Of a stretch of DNA of 64,000 nt, positions 22,445 through 38,566 are shown one piece after another. The position numbers were made by a program, and so were the translations under genes. This DNA is from Reichenbachiella sp. (lineage in GTDB: Bacteria > Bacteroidota > Bacteroidia > Cytophagales > Cyclobacteriaceae): positions 1,226,001-1,290,000 of the forward strand of contig NZ_JAWPMM010000001.1 of NCBI RefSeq assembly GCF_033344935.1. Direction: 5' to 3'. A model generated the notes under the pieces. The model did not search any database. It was not told the origin of the DNA and saw only the letters and a program-made list of their open reading frames with translations. Position 1 is the stretch's first letter. Every line of letters starts with the position of its first letter.

Positions 22445-22528
22445 GCCCAGGTGGCGGAACTGGTAGACGCGCTAGACTCAAACTCTAGTGGCTTCACGGC
22501 CGTGCCGGTTCGATTCCGGCCCTGGGTA
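22445..22528 (+). tRNA. tRNA-Leu (anticodon CAA)
   Basis: A full cloverleaf can be drawn. The acceptor GCCCAGG pairs with CCTGGGT, and the anticodon stem CTAGA/TCTAG encloses loop CTCAAAC, giving CAA, which reads UUG. A long variable arm (class II tRNA) and the T-arm GCCGG-TTCGATT-CCGGC follow. The discriminator is A and CCA is not encoded. The last 12 bases are part of the integration site of the element that follows. Confidence 0.97.
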
Positions 22529-22546
22529 CACAGACCCCTGATAATC
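22517..22546 (+). repeat. attL direct repeat in the tRNA-Leu 3' end
   Basis: The first 13 bases (CGGCCCTGGGTAC) are identical to those at 38537. Mismatches occur at 22530 and 22533, then CCCCTGATAATC is identical again. The repeat covers the tRNA acceptor end and the left arm of the tRNA terminator. Confidence 0.9.
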
Positions 22547-22645: not shown

Positions 22646-23275
22646 TCAAATATGATTTTCGATAATACTGATAAATTTTTTTCCAGTTTCATTTAAAGAG
22701 TAATGAAGACCACCAGTCATACCTCCAAATTGGACTTTTCCGCTCATTGATATTAATTGAATAATTCCTAATCCAAGAACAGCAGATGCTTGTTCAGAGC
22801 TAATTATTTTTTTTGTCGTGAGTTTCTTTAGATCTGAAATATGGGCTAAGTTGATGATGTTTGAGAATTTGAAAAATTCATCTAGACTTATCATTTTATT
22901 TCCAAATGCCGAAAATAAGATTGATAGCAGTTTTGGTTTTTTATCTCCGTTAGTTTTGTCAATTATTTCGAGGAGGATGAGCCCAAAGTTTTCAGAGTAT
23001 TCTTTATCTGCTTCAATTCTAAGCATGATGTCATCCAATTCATTTTGAGTGAAATTTTCGATCTCCGATAAGAACTTTGCAACTTTTCTATAGAATATCT
23101 TGTCCTGAATGCTATTGCTTAATTTATAAAGACTGGTTATTGTGGAAATCAGTGGGATTTCCTTCAATACGTCGTTTTTTATTAAAGAGTCGATCCCTAT
23201 TTCAGTAAAATCCGAAAGGATTTTCTTTGATTCCGGATTATTGAGACTTTTGGTAAGTGCTTTGGTGATATTCAT
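22646..23275 (-). CDS. Hypothetical protein, last gene of the nuclease/KAP cassette
   Basis: The 209-residue protein is mostly helical. Residues 35-65 hold a moderately hydrophobic segment (KEIPLISTITSLYKL) followed by a basic FYRKVAKFL stretch. The last third has strands and a glycine-rich turn (KVQFGGMTGGLHYSLNETG) that resembles the wing of a winged-helix domain. I do not recognise a named family. It lies 90 bp downstream of the KAP NTPase gene in the same direction and nearest to the element end, a usual place for accessory or defence genes. Function unknown. Confidence 0.65.
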   Translation of the reverse strand: MNITKALTKSLNNPESKKILSDFTEIGIDSLIKNDVLKEIPLISTITSLYKLSNSIQDKIFYRKVAKFLSEIENFTQNELDDIMLRIEADKEYSENFGLILLEIIDKTNGDKKPKLLSILFSAFGNKMISLDEFFKFSNIINLAHISDLKKLTTKKIISSEQASAVLGLGIIQLISMSGKVQFGGMTGGLHYSLNETGKKFISIIENHI

Positions 23276-23365
23276 TTATTAACTTTTGTAAGTTAATCGA
23301 ATTCAATCTCAAAGTTAGTTTTTTAACGACTAGTCTATTCAGAATTGCCAAATGCCTAGAAAATC

Positions 23366-25480
23366 CTATGATTTATTGTCTAGATTTTCCCTGTGTATTT
23401 TTTGGAACCAACCAATGAGTTCGTTTTGGGTAATGGGATCTCTATCTGTTAAATTTTTTGGAGCATCTTGGTTTCCGAAGTATTGAACTGACAGGCTGTA
23501 CATTTTTGAAGGGTCAATGACTAACTTCAAATAATCATAATAAGTTTGATCAAATCCAGATTTGTATGGCTCTGGTTGACTTGTGCTTCTTACTGTAGAG
23601 CTAAAAATATTCAGAAGCCTCATCAAGTTTTTTGGCCCTTCTTCTATGAATTGGATCATTAGTTTTGATATCTCAGCAGTATTTTGTTTCCCCCAAAAAA
23701 TTAATAGATGCATTAAATTGGTTTCTTCTAACTCTTCAAACAGTTCTTTTAAACTGAATTTCTTTTTACTCCTGTTCAAAATTATTGTACCTAATTCGGT
23801 CGATTCTTCTTTGGACAAAGGCTTTATAGTGGTAGATTTTTCCCGAATTTGTAGCATTCTCCAGATTTCCCAGCCAAAATCTATAGGTTGGGCTTTTTGT
23901 AAGATATTTTTTGCAAGAATGATTCTTTTTGAATGATCATTTTTCTCTGTCAACCTAGCTAGATAAGCGGCCATTTGAGAATATATCCCGTAGTAGCCAA
24001 AGAATCCATTATCGTTAGGGTATAGGTCACCTAATTTTGCTAAATTTTGACACAAAAGTTCTGCCTCATTTGGGTTTATTTGATCTTCTAAAAATTGAAA
24101 TTTAAGAACCAGTTCGTCAATCTTCATATCTGAGAACAATTGTCTTAATTCATTCTGATTGTCATCGAAGTCTTTTGAACTTAGCTCTTCAATGAGGTTT
24201 TTGTATTTTATTTCAGATATGTCGTCTGCAGCTACTGAAAAACTGAAATATCTATCAAAATGACGAGGTGAGCAAATTCTCATTTGTTCGTACCATTCTT
24301 TGCGTTCATAACGGCTCCAGGAATGCAAATCATAAACAGCTCTTAATTGAGGAAATAATTCCTTGACTATTTCAATTATTTGATTGTTTTCAAAACAGTT
24401 GAGTGTTCCTAAACTGTCAATTCTAGATTTGATTAATTCCCCTTCACTATCGTTTCGGTTGTATTGGTTTTCATCACTATAGTTTTTGGTTAGAAGGTCA
24501 CCGTTTTCTCTTATGGCATTGTATAATTTCGGAGCAATAGCTTTAATGCATTCGATAATTAGTAAGTCAATTGTATTGACCTCATCCTTCAGCAATGGAA
24601 GGATAAAGCTCAAAGAATTTGAATATCTAATAGAAACCCTTGGCGTATCTATATAAGGAAGCATTCTCTTGTCAAAGAATTCTACGAATCTATATACTTC
24701 ATCGTCATTTAGAGATATGTTATTTTTTGCCAATATGCTATTTAACAGCTCGTTTGTAAATGTCTTTAACTGTGATTTTCTAGCTAAAGGTATGCTTAAC
24801 GGCACCTGGATAATTTTCTCCAGAAATTCATGTCCTCCCTTGGCGTATTGTTTATCAAGGGATTTTGCGACTAATTCATCATCAAAGGCCAAGACATAAA
24901 TGGTGTTTTTGAAATCTGCGGTTAGCTTAACAAGTCGAAAAATGTGTTGTATTTCAGAAATTTTTAGTCTGTCAATATCGTCTATGAAAATAACGACCTT
25001 TATGTCTGATTCTTGAAGAAGCTTATCGACTTTTGTTTTTAACTCTTCAATAGTTTTTTCAGGAAACTTAGCCTTAAAAAAATTTAATACCTTCTCTCCA
25101 AAGGTCAGTCCAGCAAATGAGCTTATTGATCCGATTAGTTCAGAATATTCTTTGATTAGCTCAACCAATTTTTCACCTTTTGATTTTAGTGATTTTTTGA
25201 GAGTTTGTCCTAATATTTCGAAAAAGGATTGCAGTAATTGCTGCTCAGAGGAGAAAAGCCATGGATTGAATTTTAGGGTAGCAAGGTTTTCAGAAGATTG
25301 TAAATTGGATTCTACGAAATTGATTACAGATGATTTGCCTTCCCCCCATTTTCCATAAACCCCAATAGTTAGAGAGTCATTTGGCTCATAGCTGGATATT
25401 GTTTTTGCCAACCTTTCAGCGAAAACAAAGCGTTGGAATCTGTCATCCTCTTTTCGACTTATTGGATTATCTGATAGCAT
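23366..25480 (-). CDS. KAP family P-loop NTPase
   Basis: The 704-residue protein has Walker A GKWGEGKSS at residues 43-51 and Walker B VVIFIDDIDRL at 162-172. FNPWLFSSEQQLLQSFF between them is typical of the KAP family (FNPWxF/FDAWxY block). The pair of membrane helices often inserted in KAP proteins is not evident, so this one is probably soluble. The C-terminal 400 residues are helical and unassigned. KAP NTPases include animal Kidins220/ARMS and bacterial proteins linked to phage exclusion (PifA of plasmid F). It starts 6 bp after the nuclease gene, so the two are one transcript. Confidence 0.85.
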   Translation of the reverse strand: MLSDNPISRKEDDRFQRFVFAERLAKTISSYEPNDSLTIGVYGKWGEGKSSVINFVESNLQSSENLATLKFNPWLFSSEQQLLQSFFEILGQTLKKSLKSKGEKLVELIKEYSELIGSISSFAGLTFGEKVLNFFKAKFPEKTIEELKTKVDKLLQESDIKVVIFIDDIDRLKISEIQHIFRLVKLTADFKNTIYVLAFDDELVAKSLDKQYAKGGHEFLEKIIQVPLSIPLARKSQLKTFTNELLNSILAKNNISLNDDEVYRFVEFFDKRMLPYIDTPRVSIRYSNSLSFILPLLKDEVNTIDLLIIECIKAIAPKLYNAIRENGDLLTKNYSDENQYNRNDSEGELIKSRIDSLGTLNCFENNQIIEIVKELFPQLRAVYDLHSWSRYERKEWYEQMRICSPRHFDRYFSFSVAADDISEIKYKNLIEELSSKDFDDNQNELRQLFSDMKIDELVLKFQFLEDQINPNEAELLCQNLAKLGDLYPNDNGFFGYYGIYSQMAAYLARLTEKNDHSKRIILAKNILQKAQPIDFGWEIWRMLQIREKSTTIKPLSKEESTELGTIILNRSKKKFSLKELFEELEETNLMHLLIFWGKQNTAEISKLMIQFIEEGPKNLMRLLNIFSSTVRSTSQPEPYKSGFDQTYYDYLKLVIDPSKMYSLSVQYFGNQDAPKNLTDRDPITQNELIGWFQKIHRENLDNKS

Positions 25481-25486
25481 TGATTA

Positions 25487-26068
25487 TTACGTTTGTGGAT
25501 GATGAAAATTGTTTTCCTGCGGGTTATTGCCATATTTCACAAAATTAACATACTCTTGACTTGACCATTGGTTGGGTAAAATCAATGGAACTCTCCCTTG
25601 TCCTCCGTAGAATTTAATTCTAAAATCATATAGTTTCTTTTCTTTTTTTTGATTTTTAATCACCTGGTCATACTTGGAGATTGATTGCTGTCCTAGCTTA
25701 AAATCACCACCATATACAACTCTAAAATCGATAGGATTTGTAAGTTTATTACAGTAACGAGCTATTATTTTGTTCCTTTTGTAAAGCTGAATTTCATCAG
25801 AAAAATCTTCTGGTTTGATTTCTATAAAGTAGGCAACGTTTTTTTCAATGGACCGAATCAAAAAATCGGGTGTGTACGATTTGGTATTTTCAAACACCTC
25901 AACATATTGCCCTTCGTTTCGGTAATAGGAATCGTATATTTTTTTAGGATGAACTAAATATGCAAAATTATTTTCCTCCATCAATAGGCAAAACCGAAGT
26001 TCCAACCTAGAATCAAATTTGCATCCGTTGTAGTATGTAGTTTTGTTAGGTAGGTTATATCTTTCCAT
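25487..26068 (-). CDS. PD-(D/E)XK nuclease, TnsA-like
   Basis: The 193-residue protein has a restriction-nuclease core: Glu23 in SRLELRF, Asp68 in SYTPDFLI and Glu83-x-Lys85 in YFIEIKP. The spacing and the YTPDF block resemble TnsA-type or related DNA endonucleases. No transposase partner (TnsB/C) is present, so a transposition role is unlikely. It is the first gene of the leftward cassette with the KAP NTPase. Its ATG directly abuts the ATG of the rightward gene at 26069, so the promoter must lie inside that gene. Confidence 0.8.
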   Translation of the reverse strand: MERYNLPNKTTYYNGCKFDSRLELRFCLLMEENNFAYLVHPKKIYDSYYRNEGQYVEVFENTKSYTPDFLIRSIEKNVAYFIEIKPEDFSDEIQLYKRNKIIARYCNKLTNPIDFRVVYGGDFKLGQQSISKYDQVIKNQKKEKKLYDFRIKFYGGQGRVPLILPNQWSSQEYVNFVKYGNNPQENNFHHPQT

Positions 26069-26662
26069 ATGCCTAAAAATATAGAAAGTTTAAAAAAACT
26101 AACTGTTGATCTTTCGGCTTTGGTGGAAAAATATGTTCAAACTACGCCTCCATCAAGATTGCCGTTGAGATCAACAGATTTAGAACAATATTCTTCAATT
26201 AAGATTCTTTTAAAGAACAATAGGTATAGTTATCTATCGCAATTGCTTAGAGATATTTTATCTAATGACCTAGGGGGTTATTTGCCACAAATGAGTTATG
26301 AAAAGAAAAAGCTTCAAACAAATGGGTATCAGTATCAATGGTTTTTTAATAGAGGAAAGGGAGGAATTAGGGTCAATAAAACTAAACAGTCCTCTGTTCA
26401 AAATTTCAAAATAAAGGATCAAATTATAAGGGAACCATTCTTCACCATTTCAGAAATAGAAATTTTTAAGCAGTATGGAGATAAATTTGAAGATTTGGTT
26501 GTAGGACGGAGGGAATTAAAAACGAAGTCGCAAGAAAGATTCGTTGGTGTCGTTATGGACATTTTGTCTAAGAGAGCTCTAAAGACAAAGCCTAGGACTT
26601 ACTACGAAAGGTTAATGACAAAATATCTCATTTATGCTGAGTACATATTGGATAGAAAATAG
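26069..26662 (+). CDS. Hypothetical protein with a DUF413/MaoP-like C-terminal part
   Basis: The 197-residue protein has no signal or membrane helix and is basic. The C-terminal part (about residues 124-195) reads FFTISEIEIFKQYGDKFEDL, then GRRELKTKSQERFV, and later a second shorter KTKPRTYYERL block. This resembles the DUF413 pattern (FT-x-E-x-x-L-x-x-YG, then a G-x-x-x-P-x-T-E repeat) from memory; the match is moderate. The N-terminal part is unassigned. It is divergent from the nuclease gene with zero spacer, so the two are probably regulated together. No other in-frame start exists before residue 74. Confidence 0.65.
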   Translation: MPKNIESLKKLTVDLSALVEKYVQTTPPSRLPLRSTDLEQYSSIKILLKNNRYSYLSQLLRDILSNDLGGYLPQMSYEKKKLQTNGYQYQWFFNRGKGGIRVNKTKQSSVQNFKIKDQIIREPFFTISEIEIFKQYGDKFEDLVVGRRELKTKSQERFVGVVMDILSKRALKTKPRTYYERLMTKYLIYAEYILDRK

Positions 26663-27062: not shown

Positions 27063-27662
27063 TTATCCCCAATTCGTCAATATATTTTGAATGTATTGTG
27101 AGAATGAAGGAGTCTCCATGAGTACTAGGTGATTGTTGTTTTTATATCCACATAAGGTATTTTGATAGTTGTCCTGACTTTCGTAAATACTTATGAGGTC
27201 AAATTCTTGATAATGGTTGTCGAGCATGTCTAGTCCTGCATAGAACCGCTCATGAATAGTTTCTACATCTACGAAATGCCCTTTCTTTTGCACACGTCTA
27301 TTTACTCGAAACTCTGCCTGTTTTGGAGAGGAGAGTCCGATGTAGATTAGATTGGTTTGAAGTCCTTCTGCTTTTGCCCTTCTGACATGATCAATTACGA
27401 GCGGATTATTGAAATTAGTTTCGAAAGCGAAGTGGTTTTTCTTACTAAATGCAAAGTCCAGTCCTTGATTGAATTTCTCTGTTATGCTATTTTTGACACC
27501 CTCTTCAATGACTGGGTCATATCCGAATTTTTTCCAGGCTGAATAAAATTCCTTGTCGAAATCAAAAGCTTCAATTCCAAAATCGGCAACTAAACTCTTG
27601 CTATGTGAGGACTTGCCAGCTCCATTAGGACCAGCTATAACTGTCAGGGTTGGAATGTTCAA
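27063..27662 (-). CDS. Zeta toxin-like P-loop kinase
   Basis: The 199-residue protein has Walker A VIAGPNGAGKSSHS at residues 8-21, FDFDKEFYSAW (the D-x-D/E region that binds the sugar substrate in zeta toxins), FAFETNF and an Arg-rich block RVNRRVQKKGHFVDVETIHERF. Zeta toxins phosphorylate UDP-N-acetylglucosamine, stalling cell-wall synthesis; related enzymes use other substrates. The only possible start is a TTG at 27662, whose bases overlap the TGA of the 55-residue gene just upstream (TTGA). Tight coupling to a small gene is typical of toxin-antitoxin pairs. Confidence 0.8.
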   Translation of the reverse strand: MNIPTLTVIAGPNGAGKSSHSKSLVADFGIEAFDFDKEFYSAWKKFGYDPVIEEGVKNSITEKFNQGLDFAFSKKNHFAFETNFNNPLVIDHVRRAKAEGLQTNLIYIGLSSPKQAEFRVNRRVQKKGHFVDVETIHERFYAGLDMLDNHYQEFDLISIYESQDNYQNTLCGYKNNNHLVLMETPSFSQYIQNILTNWG

Positions 27663-32701: not shown

Positions 32702-33223
32702 TCAATGGTTTTTTTCTTCGGGTACAGTGCCACCAAATAGTACAATTCTTCCGCAAAAGGTATGTATTATTGTTTCGTATCTTCCTTCAATTCCACCTTT
32801 AGGAATTATGATTACTCTTGATTCAGGACATATAGTTTGACAACCTATCTTGATAAGCTTTTCGCTAGGGAGCTCTCGTATTTCGTAATTGATTGTCATA
32901 CGAAAAGGCACTTCTTCCACAATCACATAATCTGCTTCATCATTCCATGAAATGTTTACATGAGCAGGATCTAAATCCCAATAGTCGCAATCGAAGCCTG
33001 AGTATCTCCAATTAAATTTTGTGGAATCGTAATTGAGAAAGCAGTGTTCTCCGAATGATTGATAGCCACATGAGATTGGGGCCGATACGCTTTCATCAAT
33101 AATCATGGGGTTTCCTGGATTAGGAATATCGCTCGAACAACTGAGGCACACCCATAGAAAGAGCAGCAACATTACGACCTCTATAAATATTATACCTTTG
33201 AGAAATTTGATTTTTGATTCCAT
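32702..33223 (-). CDS. Hypothetical lipoprotein
   Basis: The 173-residue protein has a long hydrophobic signal (residues 8-28) ending in a lipobox LSCSS (Cys29). The mature part has at least five cysteines (CGYQSFGEHC, FDCDYW, GCQTIC, TFCGR), suggesting disulfides in the periplasm, and many Asp and Glu. I do not recognise the family. It lies 7 bp downstream of the membrane zinc-finger gene in the same direction, so the two are probably cotranscribed. Confidence 0.6.
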   Translation of the reverse strand: MESKIKFLKGIIFIEVVMLLLFLWVCLSCSSDIPNPGNPMIIDESVSAPISCGYQSFGEHCFLNYDSTKFNWRYSGFDCDYWDLDPAHVNISWNDEADYVIVEEVPFRMTINYEIRELPSEKLIKIGCQTICPESRVIIIPKGGIEGRYETIIHTFCGRIVLFGGTVPEEKNH

Positions 33224-33230
33224 GATATGG

Positions 33231-33923
33231 TTAGTTTTTAGTTAAAAGATTTATTTCTGCCGAATTTTTTGCTTGAACCCTGCAACCTCTTAAGTGGCCA
33301 TTTCTTTGATTTGAGTTCTCAAATTCTCTAGCACATCGAGGGCAAACTTTTGGGTCTTGCTTTGCTACGATCTCGCTTAGTTTGGCTTGTTCTTGGCTAA
33401 TAGCTTGCTTTAGCTGGCTTCCTTCTTGCTTGAGGTTAGCTAAGTTTTGGATGGATTTAGCTAGGGATGCTTCAATTCCTTCTAGTTTCTGGCTTTCGTT
33501 CCACTTGGAAATGAAAAGATGATTGTAGGCGTAGTCAAATACACCAAAGAACAAAGTGATTACACATTTGAATGCTAGAACTAGTTTACTATTCTCAATA
33601 CTTTCTCCATTCATTAACTCATGATCCCACACCTTCCAGAAATAGGCATTAATGAAAAGGGTGAAGATGAACATGATCCATTTGATCCAATCACCGGAGC
33701 TCTTCTCACTTAATTTGAACCTATCGATATGTGAACTGAAAACGAGTAACGAGAAGACAACCACTAGAGCCACAAGGCAAGAAGCAATAAGTCGCGTATT
33801 TTCACTTAGCGGTAAGTATCTGAAGAATAGAGATTGAACTTCGAAGTATCGATAAATAACGAATACAACTAACCCTAATACAACAGCATCAAATCCAGTA
33901 AGAAAACTCGCAAGTCGGTTCAT
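33231..33923 (-). CDS. Membrane protein with coiled coil and C-terminal C2HC zinc finger
   Basis: The 230-residue protein has four hydrophobic helices (about 8-28, 43-63, 83-97, 115-133). A coiled coil follows (about 142-190, rich in Leu, Gln and Ala), then a zinc finger CPRCAREFENSNQRNGHLRGC (Cys-x2-Cys-x12-His-x4-Cys) at about 193-214. The finger is cytoplasmic if the helix count is right, so the protein could tether DNA or another protein to the membrane. It is upstream of the lipoprotein gene by 7 bp. I know no named family with this order. Confidence 0.65.
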   Translation of the reverse strand: MNRLASFLTGFDAVVLGLVVFVIYRYFEVQSLFFRYLPLSENTRLIASCLVALVVVFSLLVFSSHIDRFKLSEKSSGDWIKWIMFIFTLFINAYFWKVWDHELMNGESIENSKLVLAFKCVITLFFGVFDYAYNHLFISKWNESQKLEGIEASLAKSIQNLANLKQEGSQLKQAISQEQAKLSEIVAKQDPKVCPRCAREFENSNQRNGHLRGCRVQAKNSAEINLLTKN

Positions 33924-37146: not shown

Positions 37147-38385
37147 TTAAATTTTATCCCATGTGTTATCCATCTCGGTTTTCTTTACATCTTCTGCGAT
37201 CTTGATATACTTTTTGAAATGCACTTCTTTTTTGTGTCCAGTGATATTCCTAACAACCATTTCCTTCATGCCCAAGATCAGAGAGTTAGTTGCAAAGGTC
37301 TTTCTAGCGGTATGACTTGATATAACCTCATGTTTTGGCTTAGTGGTTTCAATTCTATTACCGCCTACAGACCTTGAAACAACTATCTCAGAATCAATCT
37401 CTGCAGTTTTACAGCACTCTTTGATGTATGAATTATATTTCTGATTGGAGATTTTAGGTAATGGATTGTGAATGGTGTCCTTGTAGCGGTTCAAAATCTC
37501 CTTTGCGTATTTGTTTAGCGGTATTTTATGATTGACCTCTTTAGTCTTTTGAATGTTTTTTAGAATGTAGTCTGAGTGGATATGAGCAGGGAGGAGAGAG
37601 GTTAAATCCGAAAATCGCAAACCAGTAAAACAAGCAAAGCAGAAAGTATCTTTTACATGATTCAAACGATTAGATTTGAAATCGTAATTATGCAACCTTA
37701 GAAGCTCCTCAATAGTCAGGTAAACCACTTCTTTTTCTATTTCTGGAGCTTTAAATTTTCTGTAAGTAAGGGTTGTATTATAATCTCGTTCAGTTGCCCA
37801 GTTGAGAAACGATTTGAGATTAGCGATAATTTTAGAAAAGTAGTTGTCGGCTATCTTTTTTTCTATGAATGCATAAGTTCTGAAATCTTCAAAAAATTCG
37901 AAGTCTATATTTCTAAATGTCAGTTTTCTCTTTTTTTCGCTTTCGAAGTTTTTGAGAAAATTGAAGCAAGTTTGATATGCCATTAATGTACGCTTGGCTT
38001 TATTGCTTTGCCCAACTTTTATGAATTCTTCGAAGACATTGAAAAATGATTTTTTTTCAACTTCCAGGAGAGAGGGATTTTCAATTCGGTCAAGAACGTA
38101 TTTTTTCGTCAAAGTAATATTTTCCTTAAGTACAACTTTGTTGATTTGATGAACAAGCTCTTGTAAACTTTCCAGTTTTGAATTGATGATTTGGTTATCT
38201 TCTTTCGACTTGTCCCCTGATTGTTTCAGTCTTGATTTCTTATCATTCCAGTCAGATGGTTTTACTTTGGCATGCTGCACAGCTTTACGTATTCGTTGAC
38301 TACTAAATGTCAAAGTCATGAAGATAGGACACATGCCGTCTTTGTCTTTTTTTTGCTCATTTGGCTTAAAGGAAAGATTGATCAT
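37147..38385 (-). CDS. Tyrosine recombinase (integrase) of the element
   Basis: The 412-residue protein has an arm-binding N-terminal domain (1-110), a SAM-like core-binding domain (115-205), and a catalytic domain with Arg257 (TGLRFSDL), His358-x-x-Arg361 (SHTARKTF), His384 (TGHKK) and the nucleophile Tyr393 (FKKYIKI). This is the Bacteroidota integrase type (SAM_5 group). Its start lies 21 bp from the right-end GGTGGCAAA motifs and 152 bp from attR, so its own promoter is inside the recombination region. It should catalyse integration into the tRNA-Leu gene. Confidence 0.95.
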   Translation of the reverse strand: MINLSFKPNEQKKDKDGMCPIFMTLTFSSQRIRKAVQHAKVKPSDWNDKKSRLKQSGDKSKEDNQIINSKLESLQELVHQINKVVLKENITLTKKYVLDRIENPSLLEVEKKSFFNVFEEFIKVGQSNKAKRTLMAYQTCFNFLKNFESEKKRKLTFRNIDFEFFEDFRTYAFIEKKIADNYFSKIIANLKSFLNWATERDYNTTLTYRKFKAPEIEKEVVYLTIEELLRLHNYDFKSNRLNHVKDTFCFACFTGLRFSDLTSLLPAHIHSDYILKNIQKTKEVNHKIPLNKYAKEILNRYKDTIHNPLPKISNQKYNSYIKECCKTAEIDSEIVVSRSVGGNRIETTKPKHEVISSHTARKTFATNSLILGMKEMVVRNITGHKKEVHFKKYIKIAEDVKKTEMDNTWDKI

Positions 38386-38536: not shown

Positions 38537-38566
38537 CGGCCCTGGGTACTCAAACCCCTGATAATC
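38537..38566 (+). repeat. attR direct repeat
   Basis: Copy of the left repeat with two mismatches (38550 and 38553). It contains the last bases of the tRNA acceptor stem without the rest of the tRNA, and the left arm of the terminator. Confidence 0.9.

Follow-up and report, generated by a model that had tools for sequence, protein, structure and literature searches.

A PifA-related KAP NTPase gene and its neighbours at the left end of a tRNA-Leu-inserted element in Reichenbachiella sp.: probable mix-and-match cargo

The closest described relative of the locus presented here is PifA of plasmid F, a KAP P-loop NTPase of 741 amino acids whose gene adjoins pifC. Three articles connect PifA with the exclusion of T7, suggest membrane depolarisation and point to T7 gp1.2 and capsid gene 10 as determinants (PMC8594841, PMC9712102, PMC10286901). 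The first of them reports an effect of PifA on a very small part of the phages examined and questions whether it had evolved as an immunity protein (PMC8594841). KAP NTPases are also found in QatA of the Qat system and in Tmn, whose KAP-family NTPase is described as anti-phage (PMC11846954). A further related protein is TnsA of Tn7-like transposons, in which a TnsA-like N-terminal domain carries the residues E, D and ExK in this order.

Layout of the locus

We analysed a stretch of 64,000 nucleotides from Reichenbachiella sp. (contig NZ_JAWPMM010000001.1, positions 1,226,001 to 1,290,000), hereafter called the window. A preliminary description had proposed that four genes in it form one undescribed anti-phage system. 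These genes and the boundaries of the element that carries them are as follows:

22445-22529, plus strand: tRNA-Leu (anticodon caa; ARAGORN), integration site
22517-22546, plus strand: left attachment repeat (tRNA 3' end and following bases), 28 of 30 positions identical to 38537-38566
22646-23275, minus strand: open reading frame of P209, 209 amino acids
23366-25480, minus strand: open reading frame of the PifA-like KAP P-loop NTPase, 704 amino acids (PF07693; PADLOC PifA; plasmid F PifA)
25487-26068, minus strand: open reading frame of the TnsA-like PD-(D/E)xK nuclease, 193 amino acids (PF08722), 6 bp upstream of the KAP gene
26069-26662, plus strand: open reading frame of P197, 197 amino acids, a divergent orphan with a weakly DUF413-like C-terminal half (PF04219)
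37147-38385, minus strand: tyrosine integrase of the element (PF13102 and PF00589)
38537-38566, plus strand: right attachment repeat, pairs with 22517-22546

The two repeats bound an element of about 16.0 kb, with the integrase at its right end and the four genes at its left end. The tRNA-Leu gene, the repeats and the integrase thus bear out the earlier placement of the genes at the left end of an element inserted into a tRNA gene, and the PifA-related KAP NTPase is indeed the kind of defence-type cargo that had been expected there. The interior of the element encodes a VapE-like protein, a TraG/TraD-like ATPase, a Replic_Relax-like winged-helix protein, an M48 peptidase and a zeta-toxin-like kinase, the gene for which lies at 27063-27662. 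A genome from the same genus retains the left flank and the tRNA, and the 12 kb around this tRNA contain none of the four genes and no integrase, VapE-like, TraG-like or M48 gene; the right-flank protein was likewise not found in this genome, which is therefore not a full empty site.

All four open reading frames could be verified at the coordinates, strands and sizes first given for them, as could the gap of 6 bp between the nuclease and KAP genes; the KAP and P209 genes are separated by 90 bp. The fourth gene is divergent, as had been stated, but its spacing differs: there are no intergenic bases at all, and the start codons of the nuclease and P197 genes abut (CATATG, within 26060-26075), so that no promoter fits between them unless one of the starts lies further in. 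The codon usage is coding-like in all four frames (z 4.6 to 9.5); however, two antisense control reading frames also reach z 3.0 and 3.6, which makes this a weak test. The nuclease and the KAP NTPase are probably made from one transcript of a putative operon. A box that we take to be TAnnTTTG-like (TAACTTTG) was spotted by eye some 35 bp ahead of the start of P209.

P197 is a separate orphan gene. It scores 24.3 bits against DUF413 (PF04219), just below the Pfam cut-off of 25, and at best 24.7 against the DUF413/MaoP entries of NCBIfam with a cut-off of 135; membership of DUF413/MaoP was rejected, as both scores fall under the curated cut-offs. A single weak partial match was found among 295 other genomes and none in plasmid records or in the viral-contig scan, and no evidence was found that P197 belongs with the nuclease, the KAP NTPase or P209.

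The KAP NTPase and the TnsA-like nuclease

The KAP protein matches the KAP domain PF07693 with 181.1 bits (cut-off 20, E 3.7e-53) and the PADLOC model of PifA (PDLC02361) with 281.9 bits (E 3.1e-84), residues 2-634 aligning to positions 7-674 of 720 of the profile. In a blastp comparison with plasmid F PifA, identity is just 24% over 345 columns in the N-terminal part (E 3e-29), whereas the alignment of a five-sequence KAP profile spans most of the length of F PifA (residues 14-691 of 741, E about 3e-52 to 5e-52). The P-loop YGxWGxGK and the DDxDR residues are invariant across the five aligned KAP proteins. The window protein and F PifA share the KAP P-loop NTPase, a similar length (704 and 741 amino acids) and a location on mobile elements, but differ in their neighbours, which are pifC in plasmid F and the TnsA-like nuclease and P209 genes here. 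The earlier link between the KAP NTPase and PifA is thus supported by both the PADLOC model and the similarity to F PifA; by the same token, the KAP gene alone already matches a named system in PADLOC and loses its status as undescribed. The protein had also been called soluble, which agrees with the lack of a clear transmembrane stretch by the Kyte-Doolittle scale (highest 19-residue mean 1.24). Tmn, in contrast, is described with two transmembrane domains and is set apart by this description only. The PADLOC model of QatA reaches 70.6 bits on the same protein compared with 281.9 bits for PifA, and an identification as QatA was rejected at 81.3 bits against an NCBIfam cut-off of 600.

Matches to the KAP protein are present in 45 of 296 genomes evenly drawn from the phylum, including the window's own. 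A search of 84,980 species genomes yielded 141 relatives from many phyla, the best 80 of which were kept. Among these best 80 of 141, a same-strand gene of at least 100 amino acids lies within 50 bp upstream of 16 of the 75 KAP genes with an upstream neighbour and within 50 bp downstream of 15 of 79, which indicates that the KAP gene mostly stands alone. In two genomes, it sits between ruvC and a hemN-like gene. An S8 protease gene directly precedes the relatives closest to the window protein (38-40%), namely L063, L064, L066, L067 and L065, with the exception of L062. In four of them, an AAA ATPase gene lies before the S8 gene on the same strand; L066 and L067 stem from one assembly, and the contig of L065 begins nearby, with the S8 gene alone visible. 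The AAA ATPase and S8 genes of L064, the sole locus scanned, match the PADLOC models of IetA and IetS, which suggests a PifA-like gene attached to IetAS. More distant homologues of both genes are found at L094 (KAP 32%), and at L047:7579-11447 two more genes lie behind the KAP gene on its strand, one with an FRG domain and then one with ankyrin repeats.

None of the 80 KAP loci (best 80 of 141) contains a relative of the nuclease, P209 or P197 at phmmer E<=1 or a match to the P209 profile or a three-sequence nuclease profile; the fetched sequence extended 1 kb or more beyond both ends of the KAP gene in 67 of these loci and beyond at least one end in 79. No TnsA-like neighbour was present in another set of 13 KAP loci, which overlaps the 80. 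Conversely, KAP, P209 and P197 are absent from all three stand-alone TnsA-like loci, two of which are in one genome and one in another, and none of 29 P209 loci besides the window carries KAP, the nuclease or P197 (tblastn E<=0.01; stretches of 3.9 to 16.6 kb). The nuclease-KAP pair with its 6-bp gap was seen at the window locus only. The preliminary description had itself named a lack of association between the four genes as the result that would speak against it; in the neighbourhood check, the four are not associated in the sample, and without any co-occurrence in the sampled loci the proposal of one undescribed system is not supported. Two kinds of gene upstream of KAP resemble the nuclease in size and place and were rejected: the gene of about 190 amino acids in L052 and L054 is RuvC, and the one in L053 encodes a DUF1016_N protein.

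The nuclease scores 26.2 bits against the TnsA-like N-terminal domain PF08722, just below the cut-off of 26.5 (E 1.2e-5). E22, D67 and E82-I-K84, which we take to be the residues expected of a PD-(D/E)xK nuclease, are invariant in the three aligned sequences, and no clear transmembrane stretch was detected (highest Kyte-Doolittle 19-residue mean 0.45). The protein shares with TnsA of Tn7-like transposons the N-terminal domain and the order of E, D and ExK, but falls just below the Pfam cut-off, stands alone and has no visible transposase genes. The latter had been noted before and agrees with a Pfam scan of 13 element proteins (leaving out the open reading frames at 32702-33223 and 33231-33923), in which no transposase was found; a Tn7-like element was rejected, as TnsB and TnsC are missing among these 13 proteins. 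The AlphaFold2 model of the nuclease is poor (pLDDT 56.8). Its best matches in the PDB are mostly nucleases, presumably of PD-(D/E)xK kinds, with E values from 0.003 up, TnsA at 0.11 and nothing at 0.001 or better; the nuclease profile reached at best E 0.55 against the sequences of solved structures.

With the window's own genome counted, the nuclease is matched in two of 296 genomes of the phylum (E<=0.001) and in six of 118 genomes of the family (E<=0.01). In four matched genomes, the match lies solely inside open reading frames of about 895-987 amino acids, one of which (L055) was identified as a restriction-type helicase; this first TnsA-like match outside the window is located in the C-terminal part of the helicase and was set aside. 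Stand-alone relatives of similar size occur within the same family as two copies with identical proteins in one genome (L174:7938-8501 and L175:7241-7804, about 26 kb apart) and as one gene elsewhere. No match was found in phage or plasmid records. A literature search on TnsA-like, KAP and anti-phage contained no TnsA-like protein among the matches listed, and one on TnsA-like, defense system and nuclease returned a review of Tn7-like transposons alone.

It is conceivable that the nuclease and KAP genes form a two-gene variant of PifA with the nuclease as effector and P209 and P197 as bystanders. The 6-bp gap, the probable common transcript and the retained catalytic residues are consistent with such a pair; however, no TnsA-like neighbour exists in the inspected KAP loci (80 and 13, overlapping), and stand-alone relatives of the nuclease occur without KAP, so that we consider it unlikely.

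The P209 family

The 209-residue protein had been assigned to no recognised family, and no convincing match to it was found in Pfam, PADLOC, PHROGs or NCBIfam. P209 represents an unnamed, mostly helical family, of which 15 and 17 members were aligned. The best E values of 15 members are 0.0011 in Pfam and 0.0013 in PADLOC, and those of the window protein are 0.006 in PHROGs and 0.0014, far below the cut-off, in NCBIfam. Against the sequences of solved structures, the P209 profile gave a protein A domain at E 0.057, which was taken as chance. A presumed likeness to Abi-alpha (PF14337) was rejected, since none of the 15 members matches PF14337 at E<=1; a PF14337 sequence for a profile comparison was found in none of 12 genomes. 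The AlphaFold2 model (pLDDT 66.8) has low confidence at residues 1-50 and 178-187 and contains a possible winged helix at the C-terminus. Its matches to PDB folds are weak, many of them MarR-like (best E 0.33), and a single predicted structure, from a virus and similar in size, resembles it (TM 0.68, E 4e-8). As this model is partly of low confidence and that of the nuclease is poor, both fold results are weak.

Relatives of P209 were found in four of 296 genomes with the single protein and in six of 247 and six of 316 genomes with the profile (overlapping phylum and class draws; own genome counted throughout). They are present on 86 of 72,556 plasmid records, 76 of the 86 coming from Enterobacter, Klebsiella and Citrobacter, and in two of 50,697 phage records; the family is thus scattered across plasmids, phages and chromosomes. 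No relatives turned up when viral contigs were scanned with the nuclease, P209, P197 and a further member of the P209 family, and a literature search by accession for six P209 proteins found no paper. Seven of the 76 plasmids were inspected; they are 106-112 kb in size, typed IncFIB and, as we assume, resemble SSU5-type phage-plasmids. In such plasmids (L142, L143, L150, L151, L152, L195, L196), the content of the site flanked by a 5'-3' exonuclease gene and dnaE varies: P209 by itself, P209 together with an FRG gene, or a 185-amino acid gene (PDC-M06B-like in L150) with P209. On small Empedobacter plasmids (L146, L147, L153), a lone P209 gene lies beside tet(X) or other resistance genes. A Klebsiella plasmid akin to those with P209 and FRG, though cited here as akin and not as a known carrier of P209, reportedly reduced phage propagation and plasmid uptake, for which the authors credit a restriction-modification system (PMC8969562).

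For the analysis of neighbours, 27 loci including the window were used, leaving out the near-duplicates L143, L145 and L147. The P209 reading frame was found in 25; L191 and L193 were read from the record annotation. Like layouts were merged (L146 with L153; L150 with L152, L195 and L196), resulting in 21 layouts. In 11 of these, a same-strand gene of at least 100 amino acids lies within 105 bp of P209, and in 8 of 21 (7 of 20 without the window) this gene is of defence type, a raw count without a background rate. The eight defence-type neighbours are of eight different kinds. The close partners, all on the strand of P209 and at most 105 bp away, are:

Window: PifA-like KAP
L044: SIR2
L142: FRG/PDC-S15
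L150: PDC-M06B (like-sized genes of L152, L195 and L196 unscanned)
L160: AbiGi
L162: GmrSD/HEC-06
L163: predicted pPIWI-associated nuclease (PADLOC weakly, 3e-6)
L194: C5 methylase (an ordinary methylase of the plasmid would be an equally good reading)
Other partners: 128-amino acid reading frame, unscanned (L190); 199-amino acid protein, no Pfam match (L192); transposase (L197)

In L191 and L193, the annotation places an NYN-domain gene 21 bp upstream of P209 (domain checked in L191), for which no PADLOC match was obtained. The other 10 of the 21 layouts have no same-strand partner of at least 100 amino acids within 105 bp, and a role of P209 in defence is therefore guilt by association. Some P209 copies sit among conjugation genes.

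P209 is best read as a gene in its own right, from a family that is repeatedly found next to defence genes of unrelated kinds. It is tempting to speculate, though we regard it as doubtful, that P209 is a new family of interchangeable accessories, which mobile elements plug beside unrelated anti-phage effectors (PifA-like KAP, SIR2, FRG, AbiGi, GmrSD, the predicted pPIWI-associated nuclease and PDC-M06B) to serve as a common sensor of infection or as a safety switch. That P209 also adjoins other effectors would suit a rare three-gene defence system confined to close relatives of the element, with KAP as the sensor of infection, P209 as the regulator and the nuclease as the enzyme that cuts DNA. 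Its genes are on the same strand with gaps of 6 and 90 bp, and the nuclease triad is intact; however, no second example exists in the 80 KAP loci (best 80 of 141), the three nuclease loci or the 29 P209 loci, and we judge such a system improbable. Even less probable is a set without any defence genes, in which KAP, the nuclease and P209 serve maintenance or transfer of the element. The VapE-like, TraG-like and Replic_Relax-like genes, the P209 copies among conjugation genes and one TnsA-like relative near a relaxase gene point in this direction, whereas the strong PifA match and the defence-type neighbours of P209 argue against it.

A probable mixed cargo with a PifA-like core

With a probability of about 0.6, the locus consists of a PifA-like abortive-infection gene, a possible nuclease accessory and an independent defence-island gene, P209, which together represent mix-and-match mobile cargo. 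The functions that we infer for these genes centre on the PifA-family KAP NTPase, which would act as the phage-exclusion (abortive infection) protein. By homology with F PifA, it may sense a phage product and draw on its P-loop NTPase, with the infected cell's membrane then failing ahead of phage release, as suggested for F PifA in the literature. The TnsA-like nuclease might serve this PifA as a local accessory effector, or it might act independently and be carried along with it, and P209 would be expected to act as an accessory regulator or sensor, either alone or with whichever effector it adjoins. The identity of 24% to the N-terminal part of F PifA, the lack of a pifC-like layout, the very narrow range of phages affected by F PifA and the 10 of 21 layouts in which P209 lacks a close partner count against this reading. 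Furthermore, the 6-bp gap suggests that nuclease and KAP are genuinely coupled, for which a purely mixed cargo offers no explanation, and the locus may, less probably, be a rare two- or three-gene arrangement.

Taken together, one candidate new system drops out, and its core is assigned to PifA, an exclusion protein that has been known for long but is poorly understood. The locus also draws attention to the small P209 family, for which none of the four libraries searched contains a convincing model. Its members are found beside many kinds of defence genes and could be of use in the discovery or understanding of further ones.
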